Assembly (NCBI RefSeq): GCF_964204645.1
Contig: NC_134033.1
Coordinates: forward strand, 2,229,631-2,293,630
From: Tubulanus polymorphus
Taxonomy: Eukaryota; Nemertea; Palaeonemertea; Tubulaniformes; Tubulanidae
Reading direction: 5' to 3'
DNA: 64,000 bases
Part shown: in pieces, positions 28,301-61,612 of the stretch
Position numbering within the stretch: the stretch's first letter is position 1
Layout: each line of letters opens with the position of its first letter
Position numbers and translations under genes: made by a program
Notes under the pieces: generated by a model
The model's input: the letters and a program-made list of their open reading frames with translations, nothing else
Databases searched by the model: none
What the model was told of the DNA's origin: nothing

Positions 28301-31300
28301 TCTCCCTGTTAACCTCTTTACCTCTCTCCCTGTTTACCTCCTAACCTCTCCCTGTTAATCTCTTTACCTCTCTGATCCCTGTTATCCTCTTTACCTCTCT
28401 CCCTTTTAACCTCTTAACCTCTCTCCTCTCCCTGTTAACCTTTTTACCTCCCTCCCCGTTAACCCCTACCTCTTTTCCTGTTAACCTCTTTTCCTCTCTC
28501 CCTGTTTACCTCCTAACCTCTCCCTGTTAATCTCTTTACCTCCTAACCTCTCCCTGTTAATCTCTTTACCTCTCTGATCCCTGTTAACCTCTTTACCTCT
28601 CTGATCCCTGTTAACCTCTTTACCTCTCTGATCCCTGTTAACCTCTTTACCTCTCTGATCCCTGTTAACCTCTTTACCTCTCCTCTCCCTGTTAACCTCT
28701 ACCTCTCCTCTCCCTGTTAACCTCTTAACCTCTCTCCTCTCCCTGTTAACCTTTTTACCTCTCTCCCCGTTAACCCCTGCCTCTTTTCCTGTTAACCTCT
28801 TTACCTCTCTCCCTGTTAACCTCTTTACCCTTTGAGTGCCGTCGAGTTCGTGAGAAATATATTTGTTGTTTACTCATGATAATTACTTGCCGTGTATGAA
28901 ATGAATTGATTTCAAATATTTAGTCACAGCGCCATCTGGTGTTTTATATATTTAGCGTTGTTGACCTCGTTTTATATTTCAGGTCCGATATTGATCGTCG
29001 TTGAATACGCCTGCCACGGCAATCTCCAAGACTTCCTGATGAAACGTCTATTGAACCAGATGTCGGCTCCGTCGTCGCCCGCGTCCGACGACGTTTTCAT
29101 TTTCCCCGAACGCGAACAAGTAAGAAAAATCGATTAAAAGCGGGATTTCTTATTCACACATGTATGAAATACATAGAACAGGGGCCGGTTGCTCAAAAGT
29201 TGGTTAGAGTTAACCAGTGGATAGTTGATATGGTGACAATTGAAAGTTCATTGTTAGGCTAAAAAAAATTGATACCTTGTTTCTCCGCTCTGCTCAGCTT
29301 AAATGTTGACCCGGCCGGCCGCCTATCTACCCTATACATTACTTTTTTTAAAATCGTGATCAATTTTACCATAACAGACCCGGCCGCTATAGAAATGAAC
29401 TGTTTATAAATTTTATCATATTTTACAAAAATGACCCGGCCGCTGCGGAGAAACGAGGTATCATTTTTGTTTAGCCTTACTATGGTATTAAACGGCCAGT
29501 TATCTTTAACCAACTTTTCAGCAACTGGCCCCAGACTGATAACTTCAGAAATGTGAAAGATGTTACTCTACTTAAAATCGAATACAGGGCCCGGTTTCGC
29601 GGAAAAGTTAAACTCAAATTTTTGGTGTAATCGCCATTGGTTACTTCACATTTTCGATGAGGACTCGAACTTCACCATTTTCAGATCTGACTATAAATAC
29701 CGTATGAGTGTAATTTCTTTCAAATCTAAGCCGCCACAGCGGACATAGTACTCTAGGTGCATGGATTTCGCCTATTCGAAATCAGCTTTTTCCCTCGGTT
29801 AATATGGCTGCCATGGCGGACATCTTGGAATTTTTTTTGTCAGCTTTCTCGCTCTTCTAAGGAAAAACTTGGATTTTAACATATTGTGGTGACATATATG
29901 TGGCGTTGACACTGCTTTCTATTATGAAGAGCTCAATTACTGCCCGAAGAATACTCTCAAAATCTGGATTTTGAATGAATGAAACTATTTTGATATCAAA
30001 TTACTATTTTGATATCAAATTACTTATTAATAATTATCAAGAGTTAACTCCAAGTTGAAATCAGTTCATTTTCAATGAGTAAACTCCGATTCAAAAATCT
30101 GAACTCACAACTGTGGAACTGGGTCCAGTTAGTCGGGTTTGTGAATTATTTTTCTACAATGATTGTAGGTTCGATACGAGCCGGTGTTGGCAGACGGCGA
30201 AACATCAGCAGCAGACGACGACGTTCATATGACGACCTTGGTGACCGACGGAGGCAGATGTGAACGCGTCGTATCAGACGGACAGGTTCCGACGACGTCG
30301 TCGACGGCCGCGGCCACGAGCTCCGCGACGCTGTCGTCGTTTCACTATATACCGATGAACGAAAGCAGCGCCAGCGGTACGGGTTTCGTCCCCACCGAGG
30401 TCGATCAACAGTTCAGTCGTTTTCCGCCCGCGCAACTCACCGACTTCGCGTTGCAGATCGCCGACGGTATGGCGTATTTGCATTCACGACAAGTAAGTTT
30501 TCGCCATCGGAACAAGGTTTGCGCCACTGATCGGTAAAACTTGGCATAGTCTTGAGAAATCTTAGAGAGATTGGGGAAATTTTGGATTTGTTCGAGTCAG
30601 GAAAAAATCTTGAAAAATATTCGAGAAATTTTGGATTTGTTTTTGACCACGCGTTTCTTTATCAGTAATTGATTCAATGAAAAAATTAATGAATTTTGAA
30701 ATTTTAAACCTAGAAATTTCTCTGATTAACTGGGGGGGGGGGGGGGGAATTTGGTGTGTCATCGCATGGAAAAGTTAGTCAGGGAATGTGTAAATTGGGT
30801 GCGCAGCCTTATATCGTAGAGGTCAGAATTCATACAAAAGCCGTGTTAAAGTTTAAGAAATCGTTTTTGAATCGGTCCCGAGGAGCGATCGGTAACCGCT
30901 TACATTATTATTGTACCTTGACGTGCAAAAATGCAATGGTAAAAAATCTAGAAAGATGTCAAAAATCCTGGTATATTTATGGTAAAATATTAACCCTTTC
31001 GATGCTGACTAATTAAAACCCTCTAGTGCGCGAGATGGTTTGAAAATTCCAGCCCAGTGCATCAAAAAACAGGCATCTGCTATAATGCGTCTACACCGTG
31101 GTGCGGTGTATCGTTAGTTACTTATAGCTGTGTTTGACAGGTGCTGCCATCTTTCATTAGTGGTGAAAACATTAACGAATAACATCAATACACCGCAGTG
31201 CGGTGTACTAGCAAAGTCCATCACCGATTCATACACCGCACTGCAGTGTAGACGCACTGAAAGGGTTAAGCGGAAGGCCAATCGTTGGATGTGAAAAAGT

Positions 31301-35579: not shown

Positions 35580-36592
35580 CGCGTCGAACTGACCAGATCG
35601 GTTGTACCGTGCACACACCGCATTGTACTATGGTACAAGCATTTGAGAAGGATTTGATATTTCCTCATAATATACCAGATTTCCGATGAAACTATTCGTT
35701 TTCTCGAATTTGGAATTAGATTCCATTTCGATTTGTTTAAAACTGGATAGACCCTTAGAAAAAATTATCGAAAAAAAATTATTTGATCACACCTTGAAGA
35801 TGCATTCTGAACAAAAGCGCGTACATAATTTTTTTTTTTTCAATGATTTTTTAGACTGTTAATTATTATTTTTGTTTATCAAATAGATTTTCGATGCACA
35901 TTCCAATCTCGATGTTAAAAAAATGTGTAGCTATTTGTTGGGGAAAAAGTAATTTTTGCTATTCGATTTTATGAATATTATTAACACGCTGGTTTGCGTG
36001 AATTTTATACTTGTTTTTACGTTTACAAAAATAAATATATATCTTTTAATGATGAAAGATTTATGTTGTGTATTTTGTGGATGCGATACGGAGAATAAAA
36101 CTGATAAATGCTAAAAAGCACAGTGGATACGAGGCAGTAAGGTACAGAGAGAAAATACGCTCAGAAATCCTGTAAATCCAGTATTTGAAAAAATCAGTCT
36201 CCCGGATTATGGTCGTACGACGCATCATGTATGGTCAATAGTCTGGGCAGTTCAGGAATCCCAGACGTATAGGTATAAACAGACAAAAATGACCACAAAA
36301 TCCAACTAATGAAATAAACAACATCAAATATTTGGAGATCAACTTTTTGCTGATATTGCAAGACTTTTTTTAGGAAACAATACGACGATTAATCGCTCTA
36401 GACTGAGCAGTACAGTGCACCAGTTACGTGTCATCTGAAATACATAGAAAAACGGCAAAGAAATTGAAATAAAGATCAACCCGAAAAACCAGTCATCTAC
36501 GCGAAATAAAACTTACATTATAATTCCTCAAGCACGTAATCTGACATTTTCTATAATTGTTGTATGAAAATAAATATGATTCACGTTAAAAC
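35580..36592. other. Spacer, nothing recognised
   Basis: AT-rich, no gene-like frame. Several AATAAA motifs (for example near 36030 and 36093) could serve as distal signals for the kinase gene. Confidence 0.5.
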
Positions 36593-36885
36593 CTTTCGAT
36601 CGTTTCATGAAGTTTTTAGCAACAATCAAAGGTTGATTCGAATGAAGCCCTTTGGGCTTGGCCCTGCTTTGTCTATTTCATCGTTGTTTCTACCATGAGT
36701 TTTCTTAATAATATTGAATAATTATATTTATATTAATATCGAATATTGACTTTTATCACTTGTGGTGACTCTTTCTCATATTCGAGAAGTTTGAATCGGT
36801 CAGTGTGGACGATTTATGAATTTACACGCGCCAATCCGCTGGACTTGGAAAAATCCGACAGGATTGCCAAAATTAGGATTCGAGC

Positions 36886-37074
36886 ATGCAAGCACTGGAC
36901 TCTAACCCTTTGGTCCCTCTAGACCCATTACTGTTAACTGTAAACCCTGCGATTAAAAAAGCCGCCATTTCGTTCACAGAAACGACACTATACCTCGGTG
37001 GCAGCACCGTACGGTCAAAATCAATGCAAATGTACTATATTGAAAAAGGAGAATTGAAGCAAGCGGGTTCGTAA
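36886..37074 (+). other. 62-codon frame conserved in both duplication copies, doubtful gene
   Basis: Starts MQALDSNPLVPLDP and ends KGELKQAGS. The copy B counterpart (47542-47730) stays open but has four amino-acid changes and few silent ones, so conservation may only reflect recent duplication. No family recognised. Confidence 0.15.
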
Positions 37075-38247
37075 TGGGAGATATTTTTCCGAGATTTTGA
37101 GCTGGTAAGTGATTTAGATATTCATTCATTACAATAAAAATTATAACAAATTTCGCTAGATGTTATTAAACATCGAAGTTCCTAATTTACATAAATTTCA
37201 TAGAATCTACTGAAAACGCTCTTAAAGATTTTTGTTCGAATTAACATGGATGATAATTCGGGTTATAGACAATGAAAATTCGATTTATGAAAGTATTGCA
37301 CGATTTATGAAAGTATTGCAAACTAGTGTTTCATCTAATTCATGTAATTTTCAAAAGGATTTGAGGTGTTGCATAAATATATCATTTCAACGCGATCTAC
37401 TTCGTACATTAGTGAAATATATTCGTTAACATATTGAAGTTAAGATGTACAGGGTCAGCCTGGTATTATATCTAGCCAATGGTGGTCGTCGTGTCCATTG
37501 AACCATGACGTAATCTGTTTATATCGTGTCCTGTTATTATTGTCCTCGGTCTTTGAAATCACGAAATTGAATTGAATTGTAAAACGTGCGATTCGAAGTG
37601 AATCAGTTCGAGGATCCTACTTAACATTGGTCAAATCCAGCTTACAAATAGTTATGTGTAGCCCATGCGAGCACTTTGACCACAATCTAAAGCTTAGCGG
37701 ATACTGACGTATTCAGCATTTCTACATGAAATTGAACGTCCTTGAGATCACTCGCTGGTCTAACACATTTTGAATCATCCAGTAGAATTTAAAGTATTTG
37801 TTTTTTTTTTAATGTTGGCCTTTCGCAATTGCTCTGATTGCTACCGTGCCGATTGAACCAACCCAAATCGACCGGAAGACTCAAACTCTTCCGGAATAAA
37901 CTAAGGAGCTCCACGAGTCACATGAATCATGGCGAGTAGACATTTTGTGGAGTCAAAATGTCTTATCACCATGATATAATTTCAGTAAACTGCAGAGCTG
38001 TAGGATAGTCAATCCAAACTTATGATTCAAAAATGAGCCCAAATTATCGCAACAATGGGGACCTCGAGGGACCGCCACAAAATGGCGCCTGGAAACTGGA
38101 AACTTATTTATTATGAATCATTGTATACGTTCGTCAAATGCGGTAACGTGACTCCAAACGAACTCGAACCAAGTTCTAGGATTTCAACTTTTAAACCCGA
38201 TTTATAGATAGGCAAACATTATAAGGGGACTCGTGTCAAACTGTAGT

Positions 38248-41200
38248 TTATTTACTGGATGTCGTCAATCCTAGTCGTCGTTTATTGCGTTCATGAATAG
38301 ATTTCATATCGATTGTAAGTATTGTATAAAGAAGCGGATTCAGAGACGAGTTGATCGGTAAAAATAGAACGGCCAGCCAAGCGGCCACCTGGTTCGGTAT
38401 CTCGACCGAAAATACGGCGCAAAACTGAACGATTATTATCGGTAGCCAGCAGAATAGATTACAAAGATTGATTACTAAACTCCTTCGAGCTAAAACCAGT
38501 TCGGTAGGATCGGCTCTACCCGAGCCCGACCTACTTCCAGATACGAGTCTATACATCTGAGCGTACGTCGTCATTATCGTAGCCAATATGGCCGCATTAA
38601 ACAAGGCAAAAATAGCGAATGAATAGTGCCAGCCATTGACGTCGATCGTCAGTAAATTCATAGGCAAACAAACTCCGGTTGTACCGTAAAAATTGTCTCC
38701 GAAGTAAGACGACGATGACAGCGGTAGAATAGAAACTGTGCTCATAACGAGCCAACAAATGCAGCAAATCCCGATAACGTATTTAGGAGTTATAATCGGA
38801 CTTCTAGAAAACGGGTTGACGATATTTGAATATCTCTGACGCGTTAGAATTAAGAGAAAAGTCAGGGAACCTTCGCACGAAACGGTGACAATAACCCCGG
38901 AGAGACGGCATAATGAGCTATCCGTCCAGGTTTCAGAATTCAGATAATAAACGCCTTTGAACGCGTGGTCAGCTCCCGCGATCAAAAACAAATAGACCGA
39001 CATCAGAAAATCACAACCGGCAATATTTATGATGAAGATATCTGAAGATGTGTTACGTGTTCCGGTGGATTCCATCCGCAAAGCTTGAACGCGAAATAAG
39101 ATAACGATACTGTTAGCGAGAAAACTGAAAGATGCGATCATCCAGATGATGGCTCTCAGTACAGCGTTACCCATCAGGTCAGAACAGGTGGAAAATTGAT
39201 CAGCTTCGGGAAGACATCGGTCAACATTCGGTGCCATGCAGCAAAATTTGTAAGCATCCGAAGCGAGGTATCTCAATGATGTAAGATCGCCAAGAACGTT
39301 TCCTTTTACAAATATCACTTCGGCATTTTTGACAAGGTCTAGAATTTCTAGTCCAACCAATCCAGAAAAAGCATAACTGGAAATATAATGTATTCTGTTA
39401 CTGCTGATATTTAACGACTGTAATGCGGATAAACCTTTAAATACATTTTCACCGAGAACCAATATAGAAAGTCCGTGAAGATCGAGAACAGTAAGTGACG
39501 TCAGACCTCGAAAACTACCGTCTTCTAAATGTTGCAGCGGATTTCCGATAAGAAATAGTTGTTTTAAACCGATCAAACCTGCGAATGTATTAGCAGATAA
39601 TGATGTTATGCGGTTGTGTGTAAGGTCTAATGTGTATAGATTGTTTAGATTAGAAAACGCATTTGGAACGATGTGAGACAAATTATTGCCCGAAATATCG
39701 AGAAAACGAAGATAAATGAAAGAGTTGAACGTCGACTCGTTAAATACGACTCGGTTATTCGACAAAATCAAAACCCGAGTTGATTCTATAAAACGACCAG
39801 TAATATCTGATAAAAGAGCATTTTCACAATCGATGAAATGACCCCGGCAATTACAACGTTCAGGACACGTGACCTTACAGAATGACTCGTCATCCGAGTT
39901 ATATTTACAATTAACGACACCGTCGCAAACTTCCGATTGCGGAATACATCGATTTTCCTGGCCACATTTAAACATTCCCGGACACGACCAAGTCTCGCAG
40001 TTCTGTTCATCTTCTGAATTAGGACAATCGGATCGACCGTCACAAACGTGTCTGATCGGTATACAGTAAGATGCCGGACATTTTACAGTACCAGCCGCGC
40101 ATTCGAAGTCATTACACGCGAGTATATGTTCAAGATTTCTACATACCGGGAAACCAATCGGCATCCTTTCTAAAATACACCTTTCGTGTCGGGAATAACA
40201 GCGAGGAGAATTGAACGAACATCTTTGTTCATCCGATTCCTTGCACAGATCTGAGAAACGAGTCGAACAGTGATTGTCATTATTACAGTAAACCTCGGGA
40301 TTCACTGTCATATTAGTGACCAATTCGTCTTCTTCGAGACTTCCGCTACAATCCACGACACCATCCCGATACAACTGAGAACTAATACATTCACCGTCCG
40401 CGCACGAGAACCCCTGACAACGTCCGGCAGTGCATCCGATCTCATCGGAGCCGTCTTTACAGTCGGTTAGTCCGTCACATCGTTTATAACTATCGATACA
40501 TTGGTGATTGGAACAGCGATATTGCGTAGATAAACACGGTGGATGATAGCACGAGTTCTCATCCGAGCCATCGACGCAATCTCTCATAAAGTCGCAGAAA
40601 CCGCTGATCGATATAACCTGTCCATCGTTACAGCGGAACTGACTGTGTAAATTGATATCCGTACAATCGAGTTCATCTTCACCGTGTTGACAGTCGTTTC
40701 TGGTATCACATACGCGATGGTCGCTGATACATCTTTGATCGTTACATTCAAACTGCCACGATTTACAACCGCTTATAGAAGCTAACTCTTCACCAGTTAC
40801 ATTATAGGTACACATCACGGAATGCACTTTATCTTTTGTATTATCGAAAGCTTTCAATAACCATTTCACTGATTGAATAAGAGTAATTTCATTTCTGGTC
40901 ACCAGTGGTTTGATAACTTTAAATCCGTCGCGGTCCATTGTCAGTATAGCGCCATATTGATGTCGATATTGAAATTTGCTGACCAAATTGTTCATATCGC
41001 TTTCTGTATTTGAGGTGATTCTTACTATTTCGGCGCGGATGCTGTGACACATTTCTCTAGCAATCCGAATATTCAAACCTCGATTGTTTTTCCAGTCGGT
41101 TAGTATTTGAAAACATTGTCCGGAAATAGTTACCCAACCTCTTAGACTGGTTGAATTAATTAAAGTAACACCGGGAATCATTTGATCAATGGTTTTATTT

Positions 41201-44200
41201 AAGTCTGTATTTGTTGAATTGTTCGCATCGTTTATCGTTGAATTGTGTTTGTTTTTGATGTCGATTCTCTCAGATTCACAAATGAATGTCGTGTGCGTCT
41301 CCTCGATTTGACACGGGAATCGAACCCAGTTCGCTGATCCTCGGGGATTATTCAGTATCATCGCCGTACACGGCATATTGACGTCATTTATCGGTTGTTT
41401 TCTTAGCGGAGATATCAATCCTCGAATAACTTCTGGTATCGTTTCATTAATAATAGGTTTATACCACTCTGTGTAGCTCAATGGTTTGCCGTCAGTCCAC
41501 GTGTAATAACCATCATTCTGTTTCGTGAAGAAAAGAAAATATATCACTTCTTTAAAAACCATCTTATTCTAATTCATATTTGTATACATTAGTCTTACCT
41601 TCCATTTTAATCCAATCATCATTATGAGCGCTTTTAATGTGTACGCCATTTGGAGAAGTTCTGTAGCGAATGATCTTTTGATGGAAATCATTTCCTGTTC
41701 TGAGTTGATACTGAGTAGATGTCCCGCGTACTTCTGTCTACAGTATATTTCAGCGTTCCCCCAATTCAGACGTTCATCTCTGATGAATTTGATGCAGGAA
41801 ATTCCCGAATCCAGAAATCCTTGTTTACAGTAGACATCATCGAAATGTTTAATCGGTAACGACTCGTGTAAAGTGTATTGTATTTGAAAGATGGGAATGA
41901 AATTCTTAACTTCAAAACGCAGAGTATTATCTCTTATACTATATGATATAAGTCCACGAACCGCGTTATTTTCACATATTTTAGTTTCATGTTGCCTCCT
42001 AATAATTTTGAAAAGTTTTCCATTTTGGAAGAGGGAGTACTGTATCAGTTGTATCAAGATGATTGGATCATTCTCACCCACGTTGTTTGTTTCGCATGAA
42101 ACTGATCCAATAAATTTGATAATAAATCTGTAATATTGAAATATATTTTGTTGTATCGGGTTTTCAAATTTATAGGAAATAGATTTTGATGTACTTCCTG
42201 CTGAACCCGGGTAGTTCGGTGACTGCACCAGTCCACATTTATCTTTAGTAGTAACTGAATGACCGGAACCGAGATGTCCAGAGCTTACTGTTTTTTTCAC
42301 TCCTAAACATTTACGACGTAGTTTAACTATTAGTGGTCGCTGCCAGAACCAAAACTCATTACCTGTGAAATCTACAATGTTTAATACGAGACTGTTATTA
42401 AGAAACTGATTACTCAAACTCAGAAACTGATCACATGACAATGACATCTTGAGAAAACATCGGTCAATTTGATATTCGTGTTCTGATAATATGTGAATAT
42501 TTTTCAAGCGAAGGCGTCGATTTTCAGGTGTAATCACGAGACAGTGTGACGTCATATTGATCTGACTTTCGTCTTCCTGTAGAACATAACCGTCACAATC
42601 AGTAGGAGCAAATCTAAGATATGACCAGACAGAACGATCAACTGTTAACTGATTGTTATAGTAATAAGCGTATGCTACTACAGTAACCGGTCCACCTGAT
42701 GTAATCAGGCTGACGGCAGATCGACCGTAGAATGAACCAGGACAATACGGACCATAGCGTCTAGCTGTGAAATTACTACCATCAAATATATAAAAACCAG
42801 CTCGATCACAGTTTTCTGATAGCACTGTTAGTTTCAAATGTTCTTCATAGATGTTCACTTTCCAGTTTAGTTGTAATGTAGTTACACGATACAATGTATT
42901 CTTTGATCTCGGGAACAATCGATTAGCTGATATTGAGTTTGTGATTGAATGCTGAAATATAAGAGAATTGATAACAGCATTGAACGTTTACAATCAATTT
43001 TTACGTTTACAATCCTCCCCCATAATAAACTATTATCCCTATACATTTCCTCTCTGGTCAATATCACCTAGTTTTTATGTGCAATATTGTGTGTCGTTGT
43101 TAATTGATATATATACTGTGTAATGCCATACTTTTAGTCACTCTTGAAAATGGTTTTTAGCATAAAACCGAAAATTCGAGGTTTTTAATAAATTTTGATA
43201 GTTTTGATGTTTTAAAATCTTTTTCGATCCTGTGATTGTGGGACTTATATTTCATTCGTCTCTCGCGATTTATTGCGTAGTTTTATCACGTTGAACAATA
43301 CAACAATTTCAAATTCCCTATTACAATGATTCTATTACACGAACCCAATTTACAAATCACTGTAATAAACTTACCCGTATCCTTCGCTTATTGACGTAGA
43401 CGTCTGATATTGTTATTGATTTCACTTCAAATTCTACTTTCAAATTCGATCTTACAAAATCCGATGTCGTCAAAACGCACAGAATCACGAGAAATCCGTC
43501 TGATTTTATACTCAGAGATTTAAGATGGTTAAAACTGAGTAAAATATCAGTTCTCACAATACGTAACCCTTCCTGTTTATATACACCAACGACACCTGGT
43601 GACGTGACGAGATCACGTGTCCAGTTGAAGACGACGTACTGCAGAATATCGACTGTGATAGACCAGCAGTATAAGTGTTTAGACTGAGTTACTATATGTG
43701 GTATTCCATCAATTGTAGTGAGCAGTCCTGATTTATTATAGACTTGAATTAACGGGTTAGAGATGTTCCAATCTGATATTTTGTAAACTTGCACAAGTAA
43801 CTGCGACTTAAACCTAGATCTACTTGAAATGAATTCAATACGTGCTTTATTAGTTTTAGTATAAAACAATGAAGGCGGATGTCCGGTTTGTTCTCGTATA
43901 AGAGCTATAGGTTCACTGGTTCTGTTCCATCCGTCGTAAATTTGAGGACGAGTTTTCATTGGATCCTCACCTGGTCTTAATCTGAAATCTATCTGTATAA
44001 ACGTTAAATTCATTGCAAACCCGTCTGGCATCCCGATCCATTCTAACAACAATTTACATCGCCGGGTATCAATCCTGAATTCATAACCTGTTTGAGTTGG
44101 TATTTCGTTTACTGCATGTTTGTGACATGTATGTAAGATTTTCAAGCGACTTTGTTTTTCAAAACGATATATGATATAAACCCGACTACCTCGCGCTCCA

Positions 44201-44601
44201 TCGACGTTACTCCTAAACAACAACGCAATCAAATCGTTGCTGCGGATATCTAATTGTTTTCTTCCGGTAGCGCAGAGTTTGTTGCCGATCTCACCGACGA
44301 GAAGGTAGTTTTCGTTACAGAATATCGACGGCTCGATGTCGTAGTAAACTTGAACGAGAAAACTTCCCGGTAAAGAGCTGTTGACGAACCAACGACATTC
44401 GACACCGCGAACTAACGACGGATAGTTCGGTGAAACGATGTAACCAGACGTAGAATCGACGGAGTATTGAGTGTTGTTACAAGATGAACTGACTGTAACA
44501 GACGCGGCTTCCTCGACAGAGTTTGCGCGATCAGCCCGCGTAAATATACAGTCTCCGCAAGCGATCAGTAAAACTACGAACAACGCTTTCATTCGCTGCA
44601 T
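38248..44601 (-). CDS. CUB/C-type lectin/LDLa/LRR 7TM receptor (GRL101/RXFP-like), copy A, intact
   Basis: Exons: 44601-43375 (409 codons), 42951-41599 (451) and 41517-38248 (1089 plus TAA); 1949 aa, all introns phase 0. Signal peptide about 1-20 (MQRMKALFVVLLIACGDC). CUB about 41-147 (SPNYPS motif), weaker CUB-like modules to about 560, and CUB about 647-770. C-type lectin-like domains about 784-940 (GYYTWTDGKPLSYTEW) and 987-1097. LDLa-type modules about 1110-1145, 1150-1183, 1187-1222, 1227-1255 (degenerate), 1328-1367 and 1371-1407 (CDGxxDCxxxxDE type). LRR block with Cys caps about 1410-1640 (LDLTHNRITSL), then the KFCCMAP hinge. 7TM about 1645-1930 with NPLLY in TM7; TM3 has RQRY where E/DRY is usual. 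Known LDLa+LRR 7TM receptors (snail GRL101, RXFP) lack CUB and lectin parts as far as I know. Ligand unknown. The start is the first ATG; a second follows at 44592. The third exon is one 3.27-kb block; intron 2 is only 81 bp. Confidence 0.9.
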
Positions 44602-45240
44602 ATTGAACACAATTCACGCTTCAAAACAAACACATTTCTAACTATTTCCAAGTTTGCACGACATTTCTCATAAGAGTCGCTGCAAAGTAATGACGAGTTG
44701 TCAAGTTGTCAGAAGTTGACGAATTGATCGAGTCCAATTATTTTGTAAAAAGATCTCCCATCAAACTGACGCCAGTCTTGTATATCTGTTACTTTCATCT
44801 GTTCTCGGTTTCGCAGTAATTACCGCGGTTTCTAAATTTAGACGTGTTTCAATATATCTTGTTTATAATCGTGTGCAATTATTTCTCTAAAATCATTTTC
44901 TGTCGCGCCCGAACTGCGTTCAGTTTGTGATAATATTCGATGACATTTTCTATCTTTACCTCAAAATATTCTGCGTCTCTGTAAAACACTTCGTCAACAT
45001 CTGTTTCGACAATTCACACTCTACAGTCAATATAATAACTGAGTTAAAGCTAAGTGAAGCGCATGGATATCTGATTGTGGCGGGTGAGGACTTGTTCGGT
45101 GTTGACTCGGAAAACCAACACTAACCAAGTAAGACGACGATGACAGCGGTAGAATCGAAACAGAGAAATGTTCGGAATCTTTAGTTAGGAAACGGTTACA
45201 ATAACCCCGGCGAGAATCTGACTCGCGCACTATGATTCGG
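44602..45240 (-). other. 5' flank of receptor A with a relic of its own 7TM sequence
   Basis: Upstream DNA is shared with copy B up to about 45150. At 45123-45160 the strand reads 'gtaagacgacgatgacagcg', as in the TM4 region (38704-38738). At about 45189-45216 'acaataaccccgg' matches the TM3 region (38887-38905). On the minus strand this gives VSILPLSSSSY and, in another frame, GVIVTVS followed by a stop. A broken fragment of a further receptor copy is the simplest reading. Confidence 0.65.
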
Positions 45241-47280
45241 TCCGTTCTAAATTTGTCCCGTTCCGGACACGGACCCGTTTAGAACGGTCAAACTGGTTCG
45301 TAGTTTGAACGCGACGAAAGTCCACCCAATAATAAATGAGGTGAATTGATAATTCCGAACATTATGATCATCATTTAAAAACGTTTGATTTGACTCAATC
45401 TATGTACATCCGCATTATAGTCCGTTCAGCATTTTTACTTGGGACACGGATCAGCAAAATTCATCGTACTGAATTGTTTTTATTCCTCCTTCCTCTTTTC
45501 GGCACAATTTTTCGACAAAAGAAAATTCTGTTATTCCTGTCCTGGTTTCAATCCAGTAACTTATAAAAGTTATGTTCATCTTAATTTTCAATCTCATGAT
45601 TTGCGAAAACTAGTTCTTTTTTCATTTTTTTCCATTATTTGAATCAACTTAATCACAATTTCCAATCATTTTTGTTTTTTTGCGGTCCTTTGATGTTTTT
45701 TGTGTTGAATACTCTAATAATAAAAAAAATTCATTTTTTCCCATTTGTCTCCCTCTGTTTTGGAGCGCCTACACGTATGATGGCAAAAAATGATGATCTT
45801 ATATGTTCGGTCACCGATAGTTGGGGAAATGTTTGTGTGTCTTAGTAATGATTATTGAGAATAAGTTGGCGCCAGCGGTAGATTCAACTTTTAAGTATCT
45901 GATATGATTTGTTCTTCTGGTACGAAATTATCATCTTTTGATAATAGGTTTAACTCAGATATATTAAAGAACTTTAGAAAATATTGTATTATTTAAACAC
46001 AGGACCCAGTTCAGCAGTTGTGAGTTAGAGTTAACTCCGAGTTAAAGTTAGTTCATTTTCAATGTTTTAAACCAGGGTCAAATCTTAACTCAGAACTGTG
46101 GAACTGGACCCTGGTGTATAATCGGTCCGTGAAAATGAACATATTTCAATATTCCCCAAACAACTGTGTTTATGCATTATGATGTTATATTTATGGTATG
46201 AGGTGCTTCGTGTCTCGTGGTAGAAACAGTTATATTGATAAATCTAAACAAAAGCGACCTCGAGGGAGACATGAATTCTAAATCCGTATCATTTTCATCG
46301 AGTGATTAAATCATTGTTAAACTCAATTCTTCTTTCGGAACTAAATGACAAATATTCATAGATTATTCAAATCTTTGAGGGTTGAATCGTAGATTACTAT
46401 TTAGAAATATAACTCCTCCGAATTAGGGGAATTTTGTATCCATGAAACTTTAAATCCTAGTTTCAAACGGATGATTCCCTCTCGCTCCATCAAACCCGCT
46501 TATATTTACGCAAGAATCTTGGGGATATAGATGTTAAAGTATTAGATATTAAGTGTAAGCTTAATCCTTCTCAGTTAGAAATAATTTTAAAGGTTTTTAC
46601 GAGTTAGTAATTCGGAAAACACGACTCCGGTAAAATTACTACCAATTCCAGAAAGTTGTGAGTTAGATATAACAAAAACCAAAATTTACGGTAGTTATGA
46701 TAATCGGGGCTGACTATCCATAGAATTGTCACCACAATACACTTATAAACTAGTTCATTCGTCCACGATTGAATGCAGTTTCGACGATTCAATTCATACG
46801 ACAAACTATTTTCGCATTTCATCATTTCTCTTGTGCTGTGTCTGAAAACAGCGTCAGGCATCGTGTCGACGTAACCTTAGATAGATTTTCGTGTAGTTTG
46901 CATTTTTCATTAACTTGAAAAACTTTAGTTTAGTTTAGTTTAGTTTATAGCAACTTTTACAATGTTGTGGTTTTCAGTGGTTCATAAAATACCGATCTGA
47001 TTAAGGCCCTGTCTAATATAGAAGACCAGATCCTTGTTAAATGAGGAATATATGAACAGCGTTAATTAGTAAATGTCCTAGTATACGTCCCATGGTTGGC
47101 CTGTTTTTGTTACAAGAACTTATAATTCTTTGAGCACTCACCTGGCATTTTGTATTAATTGTTTTAGAGGTACTCTGGAGAATAAAATCTGATTGATACA
47201 ATTTACACGAATGTAAAACAGTTAAAATGAAATCAAAGATCGATTTGTTAATCTTAAGCTTTTTAGAGTGAATTCGTAAC
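45240..47280. other. Spacer between duplication copies, no gene seen
   Basis: Short frames only. It holds a foldback repeat at 46002-46114 and a short TTTAG microsatellite near 46925. Confidence 0.6.
46002..46114. mobile_element. Small foldback MITE ('ggacccagttc' ends)
   Basis: Left end 'aggacccagttcagcagttg' and right end 'aactgtggaactggaccctg' are inverted copies. The end sequence is the core of the 41-bp minisatellites of the kinase introns. Confidence 0.75.
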
Positions 47281-48891
47281 CTTCAATCGTTTCATGAAGT
47301 TTTTAGCAACAATCAAAGGTTGATTCAAATGAAGCCCTTTGGGCTTGGCCCTGCTTTGTTTATTTCATCGTTGTTTCTTCGAATGAATAATATTGACTTT
47401 TATCACTTGTGTTGTGGTGACTCTTTCTCATATTCGAGAAGTTTGAATTGGTCAGTGTGGACAATTTATGAATTTACACGCGCCAATCCGCTGGACTTGG
47501 AATAATCCGACATGATTGCAAAAATTAATTAGGATTCGAGCATGCAAGCACTGGACTCTAACCCTTTGGTCCCTCTAGACCCATTACTGTTAACTGTAAA
47601 CCCTGCGATTAAAAAAGCCGCCATTTGGTTCACAGAAACGACACTATACCTCGGTGGCAGCACCAGAAGGTCTAATTCAATGCAAATGTACTATATTGAT
47701 AAAGGCGAATTGAAGCAAGCGGGTTCGTAATGGGAGATACTTTTCCGAGTTTTTTTTAGCTGGTAAGTGATTTAGATATTCATTCATTACAATTAAAATT
47801 ATAATAAATTTCGCTAGATGTTACTAAACATCGAAGTTCCTAATTTACATAAACTTCATAGAATCTACTGAAAACGCTCTTAAAGATTTTTGTTCGAATT
47901 AACATGGATGATAATTCGGGTTATAGACAATGAAAATTCGATTTATGAAAGTATTGCAAACTAGTGTTTCATCTAATTCATGTTATTTTCAAAGGATTTG
48001 AGGCGTTGCATAAATATATCATTTCAACGCGATCTACTTCGTACATTAGTGAAATATATTCGCTAAGATATTGAAGTTAAGATGTACAGGGTCAGTCTGG
48101 TATTATATCTAGCCAGTGGTGGTCGTCGTGTCCATTGAACCATGACGTAATCTGTTTATATCGTGTCCTGTTATTATTGTCCTCGGTCTTTGAAATCACG
48201 AAATTGAATTGAATTGTAAAACGTTCGATTCGAAGTGAATCAGTTCGAGGATCAATCCTACTAAACATTGGTCAAATCCAGCTTACAAATAGTTAGGTGT
48301 AGCCCATGCGAGCACTTTGACCACAATCTAAAGCTTAGCGGATACTGACGTATTCAGCATTTCTACATGAAATTGAACGTCCTTGAGATCACTCGCTGGT
48401 CTAACACGCTTTGAATCGTCCAGTAGAATTTAAAGTATTTGTTTTTTTTTTAATGTTGGCCTTTCGCAATTGCTCTGATTGCTACCGTGCCGATTAAACC
48501 AACCCAAATCGCGACCGGAAGACTCAAACTCTTCCGGAATAAACTAAGGAGCTCCACGAGTCACATGAATCATGGCGAGTAGACATTTTTTGGAGTCAAA
48601 ATGTCTTATCACCATGATATAATCTCAGTAAACTGCAGAGCTGTAGGATAGTCAATCCAAACTTATGTTTCAAAAATGAGCGCAAATTATCGCAACAATG
48701 GGGATCTCGAGGGACCGCCACAAAATGGCGCCTAGAAACTGGAAAATTATCTATTGTGAATCATTGTATTCGTTCATCTAATGCGGTCACGTGAGTCCAA
48801 ACGATGTCGAACCCAAGTTTTAGGATTTCAAAGTTCAAAACCGATTTATAGATAGGCAAACATTATAAGGGGACTCGTGTCAAACTGTAGT

Positions 48892-51800
48892 TTATTTACT
48901 GGATGTCGTCAATCCTAGTCGTCGTTTATTGCGTTCACGAATAGATTTCATATCGATTGTAAGTATTGTATAAAGAAGCGGATTCAGAGACGAGTTGATC
49001 GGTAAAAATAGAACGGCCAGCCAAGCGGCCACCTGGTTCGGTATCTCGACCGAAAATACGGCGCAAAACTGAACGATTATTATCGGTAGCCAGCAAAATA
49101 GATTACAAAGATTGATTACTAAACTCCTTCGAGCTAAAACCAGTTCGGTAGGATCGGCTCTTCCCGAGCCCGACCTACTTCCAGATACGAGTTTATACAT
49201 CTGAGCGTACGTCGTCATTATCGTAGCCAATATGGCCGCATTAAACAAGGCAAAAATAGCAAATGAATAGTGCCAGCCATTGACGTCGATCGTCAGTAAA
49301 TTCATAGGCAAACAAACTCCGGTTGTACCGTAAAAATTGTGTCCGAAGTAAGACGACGATGACAGCGGTAGAATAGAAACTGTGCTCATAACGAGCCAAC
49401 AAATGCAGCAAATCCCGATAACGTATTTAGGAGTTATGATCGGACTTCTAGAAAAAGGGTTGACGATATTTGAATATCTCTGACGCGTTAGAATTAAGAG
49501 AAAAGTCAGGGAACCTTCGCACGAAACGGTGACAATAACCCCTGAGAGACGGCATAATGAGCTATCCGTCCAGGTTTCAGAATTCAGATAATAAACGCCT
49601 TCGAACACGTAGTCAGCTCCTGCGATCAAAAACAAATAGACCGACATCAGAAAATCACAACCGGCAATATTTATGATGAGGATATCTGAAGATGTGTTAC
49701 GTGTTCCGGTGGATTCCATCCGCAAAGCTTGAACGCGAAATAAGATAACGATACTGTTAGCGAGAAAACTGAAAGATGCGATCATCCAGATGATGGCTCT
49801 CAGTACAGCGTTACCCATCAGGTCAGAACAGGTGGAAAATTGATCAGCTTCGGGAAGACATCGGTCAACATTCGGTGCCATGCAGCAAAATTTGTAAGCA
49901 TCCGAAGCGAGGTATTTCAATGATGTAAGATCGCCAAGAACGTTTCCTTTTACAAATATCACTTCGGCATTTTTGACAAGGTCTAGAATTTCTAGTTTAG
50001 CCAGTCCAGAAAAAGCATAACTGGAAATATAATGTATTCTATTACTGCTGATATTTAACGACTGTAATGCGGATAAACCTTTAAATACATTTTCACCGAG
50101 AACCGATATAGAAAGTCCGTGAAGATCGAGAGTAGTAAGTGACATCAGACCTCGAAAACTACCGTCTTCTAAATGTTGCAGCGGATTTCCGATAAGAAAT
50201 AGTTGTTTTAAACCGATCAAACCTGCGAATGTATTAGCAGATAATGATGTTATGCGGTTGTGTGTAAGGTCTAATGTGTATAGATTGTTGAGATTAGAAA
50301 ACGCGTTTGGAACGATGTAAGACAAATTATTGCCCGAAATATCGAGAAAACGAAGATAAATGAAAGAGTTGAACGTCGACTCGTTAAATACGGCTCGGTT
50401 ATTCGACAAAATTAAAACCCGAGTTGATTCTATAAAACGACCAGTAATATCTGATAAAAGAGCATTTTCACAATCGATGAAATGACCCCGGCAATTACAA
50501 CGTTCAGGACACGTGACCTTACAGTATGACTCGTCATCCGAGTTATGTTTACAATTTACGACACCGTCGCAAACTTCAGATTGCGGAATACATCGTTTTT
50601 CCTGGCCGCATTTAAACATTCCCGGACACGACCAAGTCTCGCAGTTTCGTTCATCTTCTGAATTAGGACAATCGGATCGACCGTCACAAACGTGTCTGAT
50701 CGGTATACAGTAAGATGCCGGACATTTTATAGTACCAGCCGCGCATTCGAAGTCATTACACGCGAGTATATGTTCAAGATTTCTACATACCGGGAAACCA
50801 ATCGGTAACCTTTCTAAAATACACCTTTCGTGTCGGGAATAACAGCGAGGAGAATTAAACGAACATCTTTGTTCATCCGATTCCTTACACAGATCTGTGA
50901 AACGAGTCGAACATTGATTGTCATCATTACAGTAAACCTCGGGATTCACTGTCATATTAGTAACCAATTCGTCTTCTTCGAGACTTCCGCTACAATCCAC
51001 GACACCATCCCGATACAACTGAAAACTAATACATTCACCGTCCGCGCACGAGAACCCCTGACAAAGTTCGGGAGTGCATCCAACCTCATCGGAACCGTCT
51101 TTACAGTTGGCTAGTCCGTCACATCGTTTATAACTATCGATGCATTGGTGATTGGAACAGCGATATTGCGTAGATAAACACGGTGGATGATAGCACGAGT
51201 TCTCATCCGAGCCATCGACGCAATCTCTCATAAAGTCGCAGAAACCGCTAATCGATATAACCTGTCCATCGTTACAGCGGAACTGACTGTGTAAATTGAT
51301 ATCCCTACAATCGAGTTCATCTTCACCGCGTTGACAGTCGTGTCTGGTATCGCATACGCGATGGTCGCTGATACATCTTTGATCGTTACATTCAAACTGC
51401 CACGATTTACAGCCGCTTATAGAAGCTAACTCTTCACCAGTTACATTAAAGGTACACAACACGGAATGTACTTTATGTTTTGTATCATCGAAAGGTTTCA
51501 ATAACCATTTCACTGATTGAATATAAGTAATTTCATTTCTGGTCACCAATGGTTTGATAACTTTAAATCCGTCGCGGTCCATTGTCAGTATAGCGCCATA
51601 TTGATGACGATATTGAAATTCACTGACCAAATTATTCATATCGCTTTCTGTATTTGAAGTCATTCTTACTATTTCGGCGCGGATGCTGTGACACATTTCT
51701 CTAGCACTCCGAATATTCAAACCTCGATTGTTTTTCCAGTCGGTTAGTATTTGATAACATCGTCCGGAAATAGTTACCCAACCTCTTGGACAGATTGAAT

Positions 51801-54800
51801 TAATCAAAGTAACATCGGGAATCATTTGATCTATTGTTTTATTTAAGTCTGTATTTGTTGAATTGTTCGCATCGTTTATCGTTGAATTGTGTTTGTTTTT
51901 GATGTTGATTCTCTCGGATTCACAAATGAATGTCGTGTGCGTCTCCTCGATTTGACACGGGAATCGAACCCAGTTCGCCGATCCTCGTGGATTATTCAGT
52001 ATCATCACCGTACACGGCATATTGACGTCATTTATCGGTTGTTTTCTTAGCGGAGATATCAATCCTCGAATAACTTCTGGTATCGTTTCATTAATAACAG
52101 GTTTATACCACTCTGTGTAGCTCAATGGTTTACCGTCAGTCCACGTGTAATAACCATCATTCTGTTTCGTGAATAAAATGAAATATATCACTTCTTTAAA
52201 AATCTTTCGATTTTAATTCATATTAGAATGCATTAGTCTTACCTTCCATTTTAATCCAATCATCATTATGAGCGCTTTTAATGTATAAGCCATTCGGAGA
52301 AGTTCTGTAGCGAATAATCTTTTGATCGAAATCATTTCCTGTTCTGAGTTGATACTGAGTAGATGTCCCGCGTACTTCTGTCTACAGTATATTTCAGCGT
52401 TCTCCCAATTCAGACGTTCATCTCTGATGAATCTGATGCAGGAAATTCCGGAATCCAGAAATCCTTGTTTACAGTAAAAATCATCGAAATGTTTAATCGG
52501 TAACGACTCGTGTAAAGTGTATTGTATTTGAAATGTCGGAATGAAATTGTTTACTTCAAAACGCAAAGTATTATCTGTTAAACTATAAAATATAAGTCCA
52601 CGAACCGCGTTGTTATCACATATTTTAGTATCATATTGAGAGTCAATAGTTTTGAAATATTCACCATTATGAAAAGGTTTATAATTCATTAGTTGTATTA
52701 GAATAATCGGATCATTCGCTTTATTGTTGTATTTTTCACATGAAACTGGTCCAATAAATTTGACAATAAATCTGTAATATTGAAATATATTTTGTTGTAT
52801 CGGGTTTTCAAATCTATATGAAATAGATTTTGATGTACGTCCTGCCCGACCTGGATAGTTCGGTGACTGCACGAGTCCACATTTATCTTTAGTAGTAACT
52901 GGGAGACGGGAACCGGCAAGTCCCAAACTATCCGCTTTTTTAACTCCTAGACATTTACGACGTAGTTTAACTATTAGTGGTCGCCGCCAGAATCCAAACC
53001 CATTATCTGTGAAATCTACAGTGTTTAATACGAGACTGTTATTAAGAAACTGATTACTCAAACTCAAAAACTGATCACATGGCAATGACATCTTGAGAAA
53101 ACATCGGTCAATTTGATATTCGTGTTCTGATAATGTGTGAATTTTTTTCAAGCGAAAGCGTCGATTTTCAGGTGTAATCACGAGACAGTGTGACGTCATA
53201 TTGATCTGACGTTGTTCTTCCTGTAGAACATACCTGTCACAATCAGTAGGAACAAATTGAAGAGATGATCTGAACGGATCACCAACTGATAACTGATTGT
53301 TATAGTAATAAGCGTATGCTACTACAGTAACCGGTCCACCTGATGTAATCAGGCTGACGACAGATCGACCGTAGTATGAACCAGGACAATACGGACCATA
53401 GCGTCTAGCTGTGAAATTACTACCATCAAATATATAAAAACCAGCTCGATCACAGGTTTCTGATAGCACTGTTAGTTTCAACTGTTCTTCATAGATGTTC
53501 ACTTTCCAGTTTAGTTGTAATGTAGTTACACGATACAATGTATTCTTTGATCTCGGGAACAATCGATAAGCTGATATTGAGTTTCTGTATGAATGCTGAA
53601 ATATAAGAGAATTGATTACAGCATTGAACGTTTACAATACGACAATTTCAAACCACTCACAACCTGAAAATATCGATAATAGTTCTCCTTGTAATCCAAA
53701 CTAATCTAAATTCTTCCACTAATCATCATAATTACTTTGCGTAAACAACATGTGCTTTGGGTTACACATACCCGCTGTTATTCCAAGTTTCTCGGTAAAG
53801 GTTCACTGGTCAAAATCGCCATCAAAATCATAGATTATTACAATGATTCCATTACACGAACCTAATTTACAAATCATTGTAATAAACTTACCGATATCTG
53901 CGGCTTGTTGACGTAGACGTCTGATATTGTTATTGATTTCACTTCAAATTCTATTTTCAAATTCGATCTTACAAAATCCGATGTCGTTAAAACGCACAGA
54001 ATCACGAGAAATCCGTCTGATTTTACACTCAGAGATTTAAGATGGTTAAAACTGAGTAAAATATCAGTTCTCACAATACGTAACCCTTCCTGTTTATATA
54101 CACCAACGACACCTGGTGACGAGACGAGATCACGTGTCCAGTTGAAGACGACGTACTGCAGAACATCGACTGTCATAGACCAGCAGTATAAGTGTTTAGA
54201 CTGAGTTACTATATGTGGTATTCCATCAATTGTAGTGAGCAATCCTGATTTATTATAGAATTGAATTAACGGGTTAGAGATGTTCCAATCTGATATTTTG
54301 TAATCTTGCACGAGTAGCCGCGACTTAAACGACACAGTTGGAATGACACTTTTAAATTCTACACACGCTTTATTAGTTTTAGTATAAAACGATGAAGGCG
54401 GATGTCCGGTTTGTTCTCGTATAAGAGCTATAGGTTCACTGGTGCTGTTCCATCCGTCGTAAATTTCAGGACGAGTTTTTATTGGATCCTCACCTGGTTT
54501 CAACCTGAAATCTATCTGTAAAAACGTTAAATTCATTCGTCTGGCATCCCGATCCATTCTAACAACAATTTACATCGCCAGGCAGAAATCATGAATCCAT
54601 AACCTGTTTGAGTTGGTAATTCTTTTACTGCATGTTTGTAACATGTATGTACGATTTTCAAGCGACTCTGTTCCTCAAAACGATATATGATGTAAACCCG
54701 ACTACCTCGCGCTCCATCGACGTTACTCCTAAACAACAACGAAATCAAACCGTTACTGCGGATATCTAATTGTTTTCTTCCGGTAGCGCAGAGTTTGTTG

Positions 54801-55117
54801 TCGGACTCGCCGACGAGAAGGTAGTTTTCGTTACAGAATATCGACGGCTCGATGTCGTAGTAAACTTGAACGAGAAAACTTCCCGGTAAAGAGCTGTTGA
54901 CGAACCAACGACATTCAACACCGCGCACTAACGACGGATAGTTCGGTGAAACGATGTAACCAGACGTAGAATCGACGGAGTATTGAGTGTTGTTACAAGA
55001 TGAACTGACTGTAACAGACGCGGCTTCCTCGACAGAGTTTGCGCGATCAGCCCGCGTAAATATACAGTCTCCGCAAGCGATCAGTAAAACTACGAACAAC
55101 GCTTTCATTCGCTGCAT
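48892..55117 (-). pseudogene. CUB/C-type lectin/LDLa/LRR 7TM receptor, copy B, frameshifted in exon 1
   Basis: Same three-exon structure: 55117-53892, 53595-52243 and 52161-48892. Exons 2 and 3 have exactly the same lengths as in copy A and are fully open, with the same CUB, lectin, LDLa, LRR and 7TM parts. Exon 1 lacks 7 bp present in copy A ('gcaaacc' missing between 54537 and 54538), so the frame stops right after GMPDE and resumes as MNLTFLQIDF in another frame. It also has a 2-codon insertion near 54340 (KSVIPTVSFKSR). If the deletion is real, only a product starting downstream could be made; an assembly error or polymorphism is possible because everything else is intact. TM3 RQRY and TM7 NPLLY are kept. 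Confidence 0.8.
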
Positions 55118-55647
55118 ATTGAACACAATTCACGCTTCAAAACAAACACATTTCTAACTAGTTCCAGGTTTGCGCGACATTTCTCATAAGAGTCGCTGTT
55201 AAGTAATGACAAGTTGTCAGAATGTCAGAAGTTGACGAATTGATCGAGTCCAATTATTTTGTAAAAAGATCTCCCATCAAACTGGCGCCAGTCTCGTATT
55301 TCTGTTACTTTCACCTGCGCTCGGTTTCGCAGTAATTACCGCGGTTTCTAAATTTAGACGTGTTTCAATATATCTTGTTTATAATCATGTGCAATTATTT
55401 CTCTAAAAATATTTACTGTCGTTCCCGAACTGCGTTCAGTTTGTGATAATATTCTATGACATTTTCTATCTTTACCTCAAAATATTCTGCGTCTCTGTAA
55501 AACACTTCGTCAATATCTGTTCTGATAATTCACACTCTACAGTCAATATAATAACTGAGTTGAAGCTAAGCGAAGCGCGTGGATATCTGATTGTGGTGAG
55601 TAAGGTCTTGTTCGGTACAGATTGTTTTGAAGAAACAACAGCAACCA

Positions 55648-55673
55648 AGTAAGACGGGCATGACAGCGGTAGA
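55648..55673 (-). other. Short relic of receptor 7TM sequence at the copy B border
   Basis: 'agtaagacgggcatgacagc' followed by 'ggtaga' matches the TM4-coding stretch and the relic next to copy A, then breaks off into an unrelated repeat. Confidence 0.5.
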
Positions 55674-60374: not shown

Positions 60375-60710
60375 ATCCTATCCTCTCTATCTCTTTCTAT
60401 CCTCTCTCATTCTCACTCTCTCCTCACTCTGTTTCACTCTCATCTCTCCTCACTCTGTTTCACTCTCATCTCTCCTCACTCTGTCTCATTCTCACTCTCT
60501 CCTCACTCTGTCTCACTCTCTCCTCACTCTGTCTCACTCTCTCCTCACTCTGTTTCACTCTCATCTCTCCTCACTCTGTCTCATTCTCATCTCTCCTCAC
60601 TCTGTCTCATTCTCACTCTCTCCTCACTCTGTTTCACTCTCATCTCTCCTCACTCTGTCTCTTCTCACTCTCTCCTCCTCTCTCTCTGCCCACTCTTGTC
60701 TCATTCTCTA
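60375..60710. repeat. CT-rich minisatellite
   Basis: Units of 'ctctcctcactctgtctcat' with variants. Long open frames on the plus strand come from lack of stop codons in this composition. Confidence 0.92.
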
Positions 60711-61199: not shown

Positions 61200-61612
61200 A
61201 ATAATGACGGAGTAGAGTCTGCGTCTCGAGGTTTGGAGATGGTGCCTTGGTCTGAGTAGAGTCTGCGTCTCGAGGTTTGGAGATGGTTCTGTAGTCGGAG
61301 TAGAGTCTGCGTCTCGAGGTTTGGAGATGGTGCTTTAGTCCCGAGGTTTGGAGATGGTGCTTTAGTCGGAGTAGAGTCTGCGTCTCGAGGTTTGGAGATG
61401 GTGCTTTAGTCGTAGAGTCTGCGTCTCGAGGTTTGGAGATGGTGCTTTAGTCGGAGTAGAGTCTGCGTCTCGAGGTTTGGAGATGGTGCCTTAGTCGGAG
61501 TAGAGTCTGCGTCTCGAGGTTTGGAGATGGAGTGGAGTCTGCATCTCGAGGTTTGGAGATTGTGCTTTAGTCGGAGTTGAGTCTGCGTCTCGAGGTTTGA
61601 AGATGTTGCTGT
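61200..61612. repeat. Minisatellite, about 45-bp unit, about nine copies
   Basis: Unit 'gagtagagtctgcgtctcga' plus 'ggtttggagatggtgctta' type. Confidence 0.92.

Follow-up and report, generated by a model that had tools for sequence, protein, structure and literature searches.

A tandemly arrayed family of GRL101-like receptors with CUB and C-type-lectin-like modules in the nemertean Tubulanus polymorphus

GRL101-like receptors in other animals and copy R1 of Tubulanus polymorphus

In the snail Biomphalaria sudanica, the GRL101-like receptors of the schistosome-resistance locus SudRes2 carry an N-terminal C-type lectin domain on a GRL101 body, as described in the available parts of the paper (PMC12297450). 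Here we describe a receptor gene family of the nemertean Tubulanus polymorphus, for which these receptors are the closest known system. The family was analysed from a copy designated R1, located in a stretch of 64,000 nucleotides (assembly GCF_964204645.1, contig NC_134033.1, positions 2,229,631 to 2,293,630), hereafter the window. R1 is the window's intact receptor copy and occupies positions 44601-38248 on the minus strand. As in the SudRes2 receptors, a C-type-lectin-like domain precedes LDLa repeats, leucine-rich repeats (LRRs) and a seven-transmembrane (7TM) domain in one chain, and both families are arranged in tandem; the haplotypes of the SudRes2 cluster differ in presence or absence and in length (PMC12297450). 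The two systems differ in number, with 12 such genes (two of them without a domain) plus six annotated elsewhere at SudRes2 versus at least 202 loci here, and in the outer modules, since one C-type lectin domain is described there while two C-type-lectin-like domains (CTLDs) preceded by CUB-like domains are present here (PMC12297450). An earlier note on this DNA had allowed that the architecture might already be described. The lectin-GRL101 combination is indeed published (PMC12297450), whereas a CUB array with a second CTLD on a GRL101 body, or a similar copy number, was not found in print in the literature searched, most subscription papers lying outside its reach; the word CUB is absent from the main text of the SudRes2 paper.

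More distant systems share parts of this organization, again according to the available parts of the reports. GRL101 of Lymnaea stagnalis and the type C2 LGRs contain LDLa and LRR modules (PMC8286064, PMC4079206). Like these, the present family combines many LDLa repeats and LRRs with a relaxin-receptor-like 7TM, and R1 shows two traits of the group, a class A 7TM of the LGR/relaxin group and several LDLa together with LRRs; their ectodomain, in contrast, consists of LRRs and LDLas only (PMC8286064, PMC4079206). The 14 LDLRR-GPCRs of Ciona intestinalis, which have single or tandem LDLa, also represent a lineage expansion of relaxin-receptor-like 7TMs with LDLa, but they lack the LRRs found here, and the word CUB is absent from the available text (PMC2396169). 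Amphioxus adhesion G-protein-coupled receptors (GPCRs) carry Lectin C-type, CUB and LDLa domains, identical types of extracellular module on a 7TM (PMC2246102). No Pfam match to the GPS domain was obtained in R1, which matched 7tm_1 instead. Adhesion GPCRs have a GAIN/GPS domain and an adhesion-type 7TM, and R1 thus falls outside that class.

Gene structure and domain assignments

R1 consists of three exons, and all coordinates given for its features are window positions on the minus strand. Exon 1 (43375..44601) begins with the ATG start, encodes the signal peptide, CUB1 and CUB-like domain 2, and ends in CGG before the donor GTAAGT. Intron 1 (42952..43374; 423 nucleotides) and intron 2 (41518..41598; 81 nucleotides) are both GT-AG introns in phase 0. 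Exon 2 (41599..42951) encodes a divergent beta-rich region, CUB-like domain 3 and the first half of CTLD1, which continues beyond intron 2 in exon 3 (38248..41517), followed by CTLD2, the LDLa repeats, the LRRs, the 7TM and the stop codon. Joining the three exons yields a protein of 1949 residues in the order signal peptide, CUB-like domains, two CTLDs, LDLa repeats, LRRs and class A 7TM. The hydrophobicity profile shows a signal-peptide-like segment at residues 3-24 (signal peptide at about residues 1-18), and strong hydrophobic segments resume from residue 1646. The earlier note had proposed three in-phase exons, a length of about 1949 residues, and CUB and two C-type-lectin-like domains ahead of an LDLa-LRR-7TM part of the GRL101/RXFP type in one chain; the intron borders give the same length, and the domain searches agree with the order.

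That note had also named an alternative in which exons 1 and 2 belong to a gene other than that of exon 3. The Lectin_C match of R1 spans the exon 2/3 junction (Pfam E 2.1e-8) and neither frame alone matches, so intron 2 lies inside CTLD1 and the exons form one gene. Separate genes are ruled out by this junction-spanning CTLD1 together with the joint duplication of the exons described below. The donor of intron 2, an in-phase GT, was found at the homologous place in all ten genes checked (R1 and nine divergent ones). For comparisons within the family, 28 full copies were picked, not randomly, from the best matches and from tag-bearing loci across contigs. Exon lengths were multiples of three in 21 of these 28 for exon 1 and in 22 for exon 2, and the length of intron 1 is free to vary among copies.

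CUB1 (44152..44481, about residues 41-150; PF00431) scored 21.7 bits in Pfam on exons 1-2, with a cut-off of 21.4, and just under the cut-off on exon 1 alone. Across the family, the Pfam CUB model matched exon 1 at E <=0.1 in 27 of 30 copies (best E 2.2e-11), and a profile built from exon 1 of the 30 copies retrieved cubilin (E 3e-8) as well as the CUB domains of MASP. The two further domains were assigned from structure models, which were weak overall (mean predicted local distance difference test score (pLDDT) of 45.1 for exon 1 and 44.6 for exon 2) and usable in short segments alone. CUB-like domain 2 (43771..44151, about residues 151-277; block pLDDT 64-85) is the one segment modelled well in exon 1. 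The top Foldseek matches of the exon 1 model were the CUB_C domain of TSG-6 (E 6.3e-4, the sole match within E 0.001) and a CUB domain of C1r (E 1.0e-3), with EphA7 and others close after. CUB-like domain 3 (41863..42243, about residues 646-772; block pLDDT 59-85) lies within the stretch of highest nonsynonymous diversity (pN). The exon 2 model matched a spermadhesin best (E 2.5e-3), with no match at E <=0.001 and other jelly-roll folds near. The Foldseek results carry no aligned range, so the matched part of each model is not located. Because EphA7, SUN and jelly-roll folds follow closely behind the CUB matches, the predicted CUB-like domain 3 is a marginal assignment.

CTLD1 (41260..41829, residues 784-946) is the better defined of the two lectin-like domains. 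Lectin_C was matched at E <=0.1 by 29 of 31 exon 2 segments, the segment of R1 not being among them. CTLD2 (40768..41142, residues 986-1110) gave no Pfam match in R1, and where copies did match, in 4 of 31, the scores were weak (best E 0.046). A profile of 31 sequences nevertheless retrieved CTLDs from the PDB, that of the IgY receptor at E 3.9e-5 and that of NKG2D at E 6.2e-4, over the first half of the profile only. The first cysteine of CTLD2 is absent in R1 (window 40762-41160) and kept in all 30 other segments that cover the place, two further segments beginning behind it. CTLD2 of R1 may therefore be altered.

The remainder of the chain is assigned by strong matches. The LDLa region (39868..40767, residues 1111-1410) contains six stretches (PF00057, E 6e-35), the LRR region (39169..39867, residues 1411-1643) matches LRR_8 (PF13855, E 7.3e-30), and the 7TM with its short tail (38251..39168, residues 1644-1949) matches 7tm_1 (PF00001, E 6.8e-24). 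The solved structure closest to the 7TM in the PDB is RXFP1 (7tmw, E 1.7e-50), followed by LHCGR, TSHR and FSHR. In the exon 3 frame, residues 639-1091 with the LRRs and the 7TM align to human RXFP1 (E 1.4e-75), and the CWxP and NPxxY regions of the two receptors align as well. RXFP1 has a single N-terminal LDLa and is not known to carry a CUB domain or a CTLD. The six LDLa stretches of R1 are placed behind CUB and CTLD, which sets it apart from the RXFP group (type C1 LGRs) with its single N-terminal LDLa.

In the 33 copies examined, CWxP (x = L or M) and NPLLY are present throughout. All 33 also have the arginine at the DRY position, with the acidic residue replaced by Q in 25 and by H, F or Y in the remaining eight; the family thus has Q/H/F/Y-R-Y/F/C at the place of E-K-Y in RXFP1. 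The G-protein signalling suggested in the earlier note is favoured by the DRY arginine, CWxP and NPLLY, the acidic residue of DRY being replaced, and from these motifs we infer that the receptor probably couples to G proteins.

The close match to RXFP1 is also what would be expected of multiplied GRL101-type hormone receptors for insulin/IGF/relaxin-like peptides, with the outer modules as accessories. LGR-type hormone-receptor relatives usually occur in one or few copies, and a set of about 200 related loci whose ectodomains are shuffled would be unusual among hormone receptors. The available parts of one study contain a point on each side, as IGF is proposed there as a GRL101 ligand and a single GRL101 ortholog is reported for each ambulacrarian species studied (PMC8286064). 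We consider a multiplied hormone receptor very unlikely.

Copy number, constraint and exchange of modules

To determine the extent of the family, all 77 contigs of the genome (267.8 Mb) were searched. A 48-base tag from the TM7 region was found with <=3 mismatches at 73 places (66 on contig C9, four on C22 and three on C8) and a tag from exon 2 at 89 places, and the same tags read backward as controls gave no match genome-wide. A 7TM query of 109 residues matched at all 150 places scored, out of 409 candidates, on contigs C6, C9, C12, C8, C10, C22 and C32, and the last-exon frame was open over >=1050 residues at 124 of these 150 loci. A further 31 loci came from a second query, for which 150 of 404 candidates were scored; two lie on C4, and 25 of the 31 have frames of >=1050 residues. 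After the tag and query lists were combined and repeat entries left out, at least 202 non-redundant 7TM loci remained on eight contigs, with 91 on C9, 60 on C6 and 31 on C12; this lower bound, given the candidates scored, includes short fragments and broken loci. Many of the loci form tandem arrays; 107 of 194 distances between neighbours are <20 kb, and periods of ~7.65 kb in a run on C12 and ~10 kb in runs on C6 were observed. A lone chimera or an assembly accident is ruled out by this number and by further copies scored for identity, which are 90-95% identical to R1 and are therefore not repeats of one sequence.

The outer modules and the receptor body are duplicated together. The exon 2 tag was found upstream on the same strand for 63 of the 73 TM7 tags, in 57 cases at a distance of 4352-4447 nucleotides, and this fixed spacing indicates that the chimera duplicates as a unit. 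Six divergent members (two on C9 and one each on C10, C12, C8 and C32) have, by homology, the same three exon frames and the same modules. Identity is 50-72% for each of exon 1, exon 2, CTLD2 and exon 3; for the second half of CTLD1 it is 85-90%. The possibility that places with the exon 2 tag only represent truncated or secreted forms was rejected after four such places, out of 30 that are unpaired, had been examined: two (L035 and L038) proved to be complete but diverged members, L037 contains relatives of the three exons with broken frames, and L036 has no long exon 3 frame.

On the exon borders of R1, the whole reading is intact in 14 of the 28 full copies. The pN/pS ratios (nonsynonymous to synonymous diversity), the linkage analysis and the selection counts refer to these 14, the failing copies having been dropped. 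The ratio is 0.25-0.26 in LDLa, LRR, 7TM and CTLD1, 0.42 at residues 19-165, 0.49 in CTLD2, 0.57 at residues 166-409 and 0.64 at residues 410-783. Amino-acid change is significantly below the neutral expectation in 11 of 12 stretches, the exception being residues 410-530, and the gene is therefore coding in all three exons. The share of positions that vary is 70% in CTLD2, 72% in the linker preceding it and 59% in CUB-like domain 3, versus 21-24% in LDLa, LRR, CTLD1, CUB1 and 7TM (23% in the 7TM), and only one of 306 positions of the 7TM shows four or more residues. Many framework residues within the variable modules are conserved across subfamilies.

The distribution of variation bears on a possible chemosensory repertoire, in which hundreds of 7TM receptors would be displayed in sensory cells, the ectodomain catching dissolved or surface-bound cues. 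Chemoreceptor families resemble the present one in copy number and tandem layout. The variation here, however, sits in the outer modules and not in the 7TM (pN/pS 0.26), whereas in class A chemoreceptors it is usually the 7TM that varies. A study on the starfish Acanthaster reports stronger expression of a GRL101-like gene in the sensory tentacles compared with the tube feet, which would suit a sensory function (PMC6267866). On balance, we regard a chemosensory repertoire as unlikely.

Association between sites was examined with 368 informative sites, with distances measured along the joined coding sequence, introns excluded. The mean r2 was 0.249 at <=30 nucleotides, 0.100 at 100-300, 0.089 at 300-600 and 0.078-0.081 beyond 600, so that the value expected for unlinked sites (1/13 = 0.077) was nearly reached beyond ~600 nucleotides. 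None of 200 position shuffles gave an equally negative correlation between r2 and distance. Individual copies illustrate the mosaicism. In L024 and L022 (C9, 4.79 and 4.46 Mb), exon 3 is of the R1 type outside CTLD2 (identity 0.91-0.98), while CTLD2 itself is 0.88-0.89 identical to the L035 subfamily versus 0.48-0.52 to the R1 group; L024 belongs to the 14 intact copies and L022, with an incomplete first exon, does not. These identities indicate that the highly variable CTLD2 is a cassette exchanged between subfamilies, presumably by gene conversion or unequal crossing-over.

Proposed role of the family

We think it probable, if only by a little, that this lineage-expanded family of GRL101-like LGRs is a diversified recognition repertoire in which binding at shuffled modules would be relayed to a G protein. 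The outer CUB and CTLD2 modules differ between copies, and gene conversion or unequal recombination would have redistributed them across the family, presenting many binding surfaces on a single LDLa-LRR-7TM signalling body that is nearly constant. The variable outer modules may bind diverse targets directly and, in the manner of RXFP receptors, the LDLa/LRR hinge would pass the effect of binding on to the 7TM and from there to a G protein. The recognition would be immune, allorecognition or another form of surface recognition. By analogy, the repertoire reading may draw support from the published cluster of GRL101-plus-lectin receptors within a pathogen-resistance locus, as far as the available text describes it (PMC12297450). 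A further-reaching version, which we put forward tentatively, is that the family constitutes a new animal recognition system, a germline-shuffled GPCR repertoire of at least 200 loci in which swapped CTLD2 and CUB cassettes would provide specificities for pathogens, symbionts or non-self.

Several observations weigh against a recognition repertoire. Ca2+-dependent sugar-binding C-type lectins carry EPN/QPD and WND motifs. These motifs were found in none of 35 second-half segments of CTLD1 and none of 33 segments of CTLD2, so glycan recognition, which the earlier note had proposed for the lectin and CUB modules, is not supported and that proposal is weakened. The domain that best matches a lectin, CTLD1, shows little variation among the copies. 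Four-gamete combinations were present already in 24% of site pairs <=30 nucleotides apart; recurrent mutation or very short exchanges may therefore add to the apparent shuffling. Half of the 28 full copies fail the strict reading. In the variable segments, synonymous diversity rises alongside pN (around CUB-like domain 3, at residues 691-750, pN is up to 0.18 and pS up to 0.33), and none of the seven listed windows of twenty codons with a ratio >1.3 and >=6 changes was significant (smallest p 0.21), so diversifying or positive selection is not demonstrated. An equivalent pattern could arise from relaxed constraint combined with conversion involving divergent copies.

The failing copies, the raised pS and the lack of a significant excess window are what would be seen if the variation were a by-product of an unstable tandem array, with birth, death and conversion of genes, few working copies and no recognition role. 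Failing the strict reading is not equal to being broken, since five of the 14 failing copies (L010, L011, L012, L025 and L028) are open in each of the three segments when their own borders are used; by this looser measure 19 of the 28 copies are open. The by-product explanation is at odds with the open last exons at most scored and added loci, the constraint in nearly all stretches of the intact copies, and the framework residues kept within variable modules across subfamilies, and we consider it quite unlikely. If the repertoire reading is true, variable and exchangeable modules on a constant 7TM at no fewer than 202 loci would tie innate or other surface recognition directly to G-protein signalling, and the family would offer a comparative frame for the snail GRL101 cluster linked to resistance against schistosomes. 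With such arrays, the idea lends itself to testing by routine long-read data on populations and on expression.

The window itself contains a second tandem copy, R2 (48892..55129, minus strand), which the earlier note had overlooked, as it had the family as a whole. Its exon 3 (about 48892-52161) encodes a protein 95% identical to that of R1, exon 2 lies at about 52243-53595, and the frame of exon 1 (about 53892-55117) is broken by a frameshift. Self-comparison of the window showed that the two copies lie in a duplicated block (36590..45153 and its partner 47278-55673) with pieces of 93-96% identity, a part of intron 1 being unaligned.

Outside the receptor copies, an exon of a haloacid-dehalogenase-like hydrolase (window 13055-13585, minus strand; Pfam E 6.2e-9) and a possible protein kinase exon (27430-27879, plus strand; Pfam E 0.008, under the cut-off) were observed. 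Tandem-repeat arrays are located at 6002-6387, 18413-18969, 20890-21471, 21972-22778, 26152-26702, 28020-28831, 31532-31983, 33248-33711, 60385-60708 and 61206-61613, and the stretch at 28-30 kb of the window has a strong GC skew of -0.386. A COX1 search gave no match, and the one 5.8S match looked degraded. Elsewhere in the genome, a neuropeptide precursor of the FMRFamide type, compatible with a protostome, is encoded at locus L043 (C11:5595377-5596540). Among the papers listed, those with one of its peptides, YIRFamide, deal with flatworms and nematodes. The open frame at L043 has 500 residues with repeated YIRFamide, YMRFamide and NDFLRFamide units.

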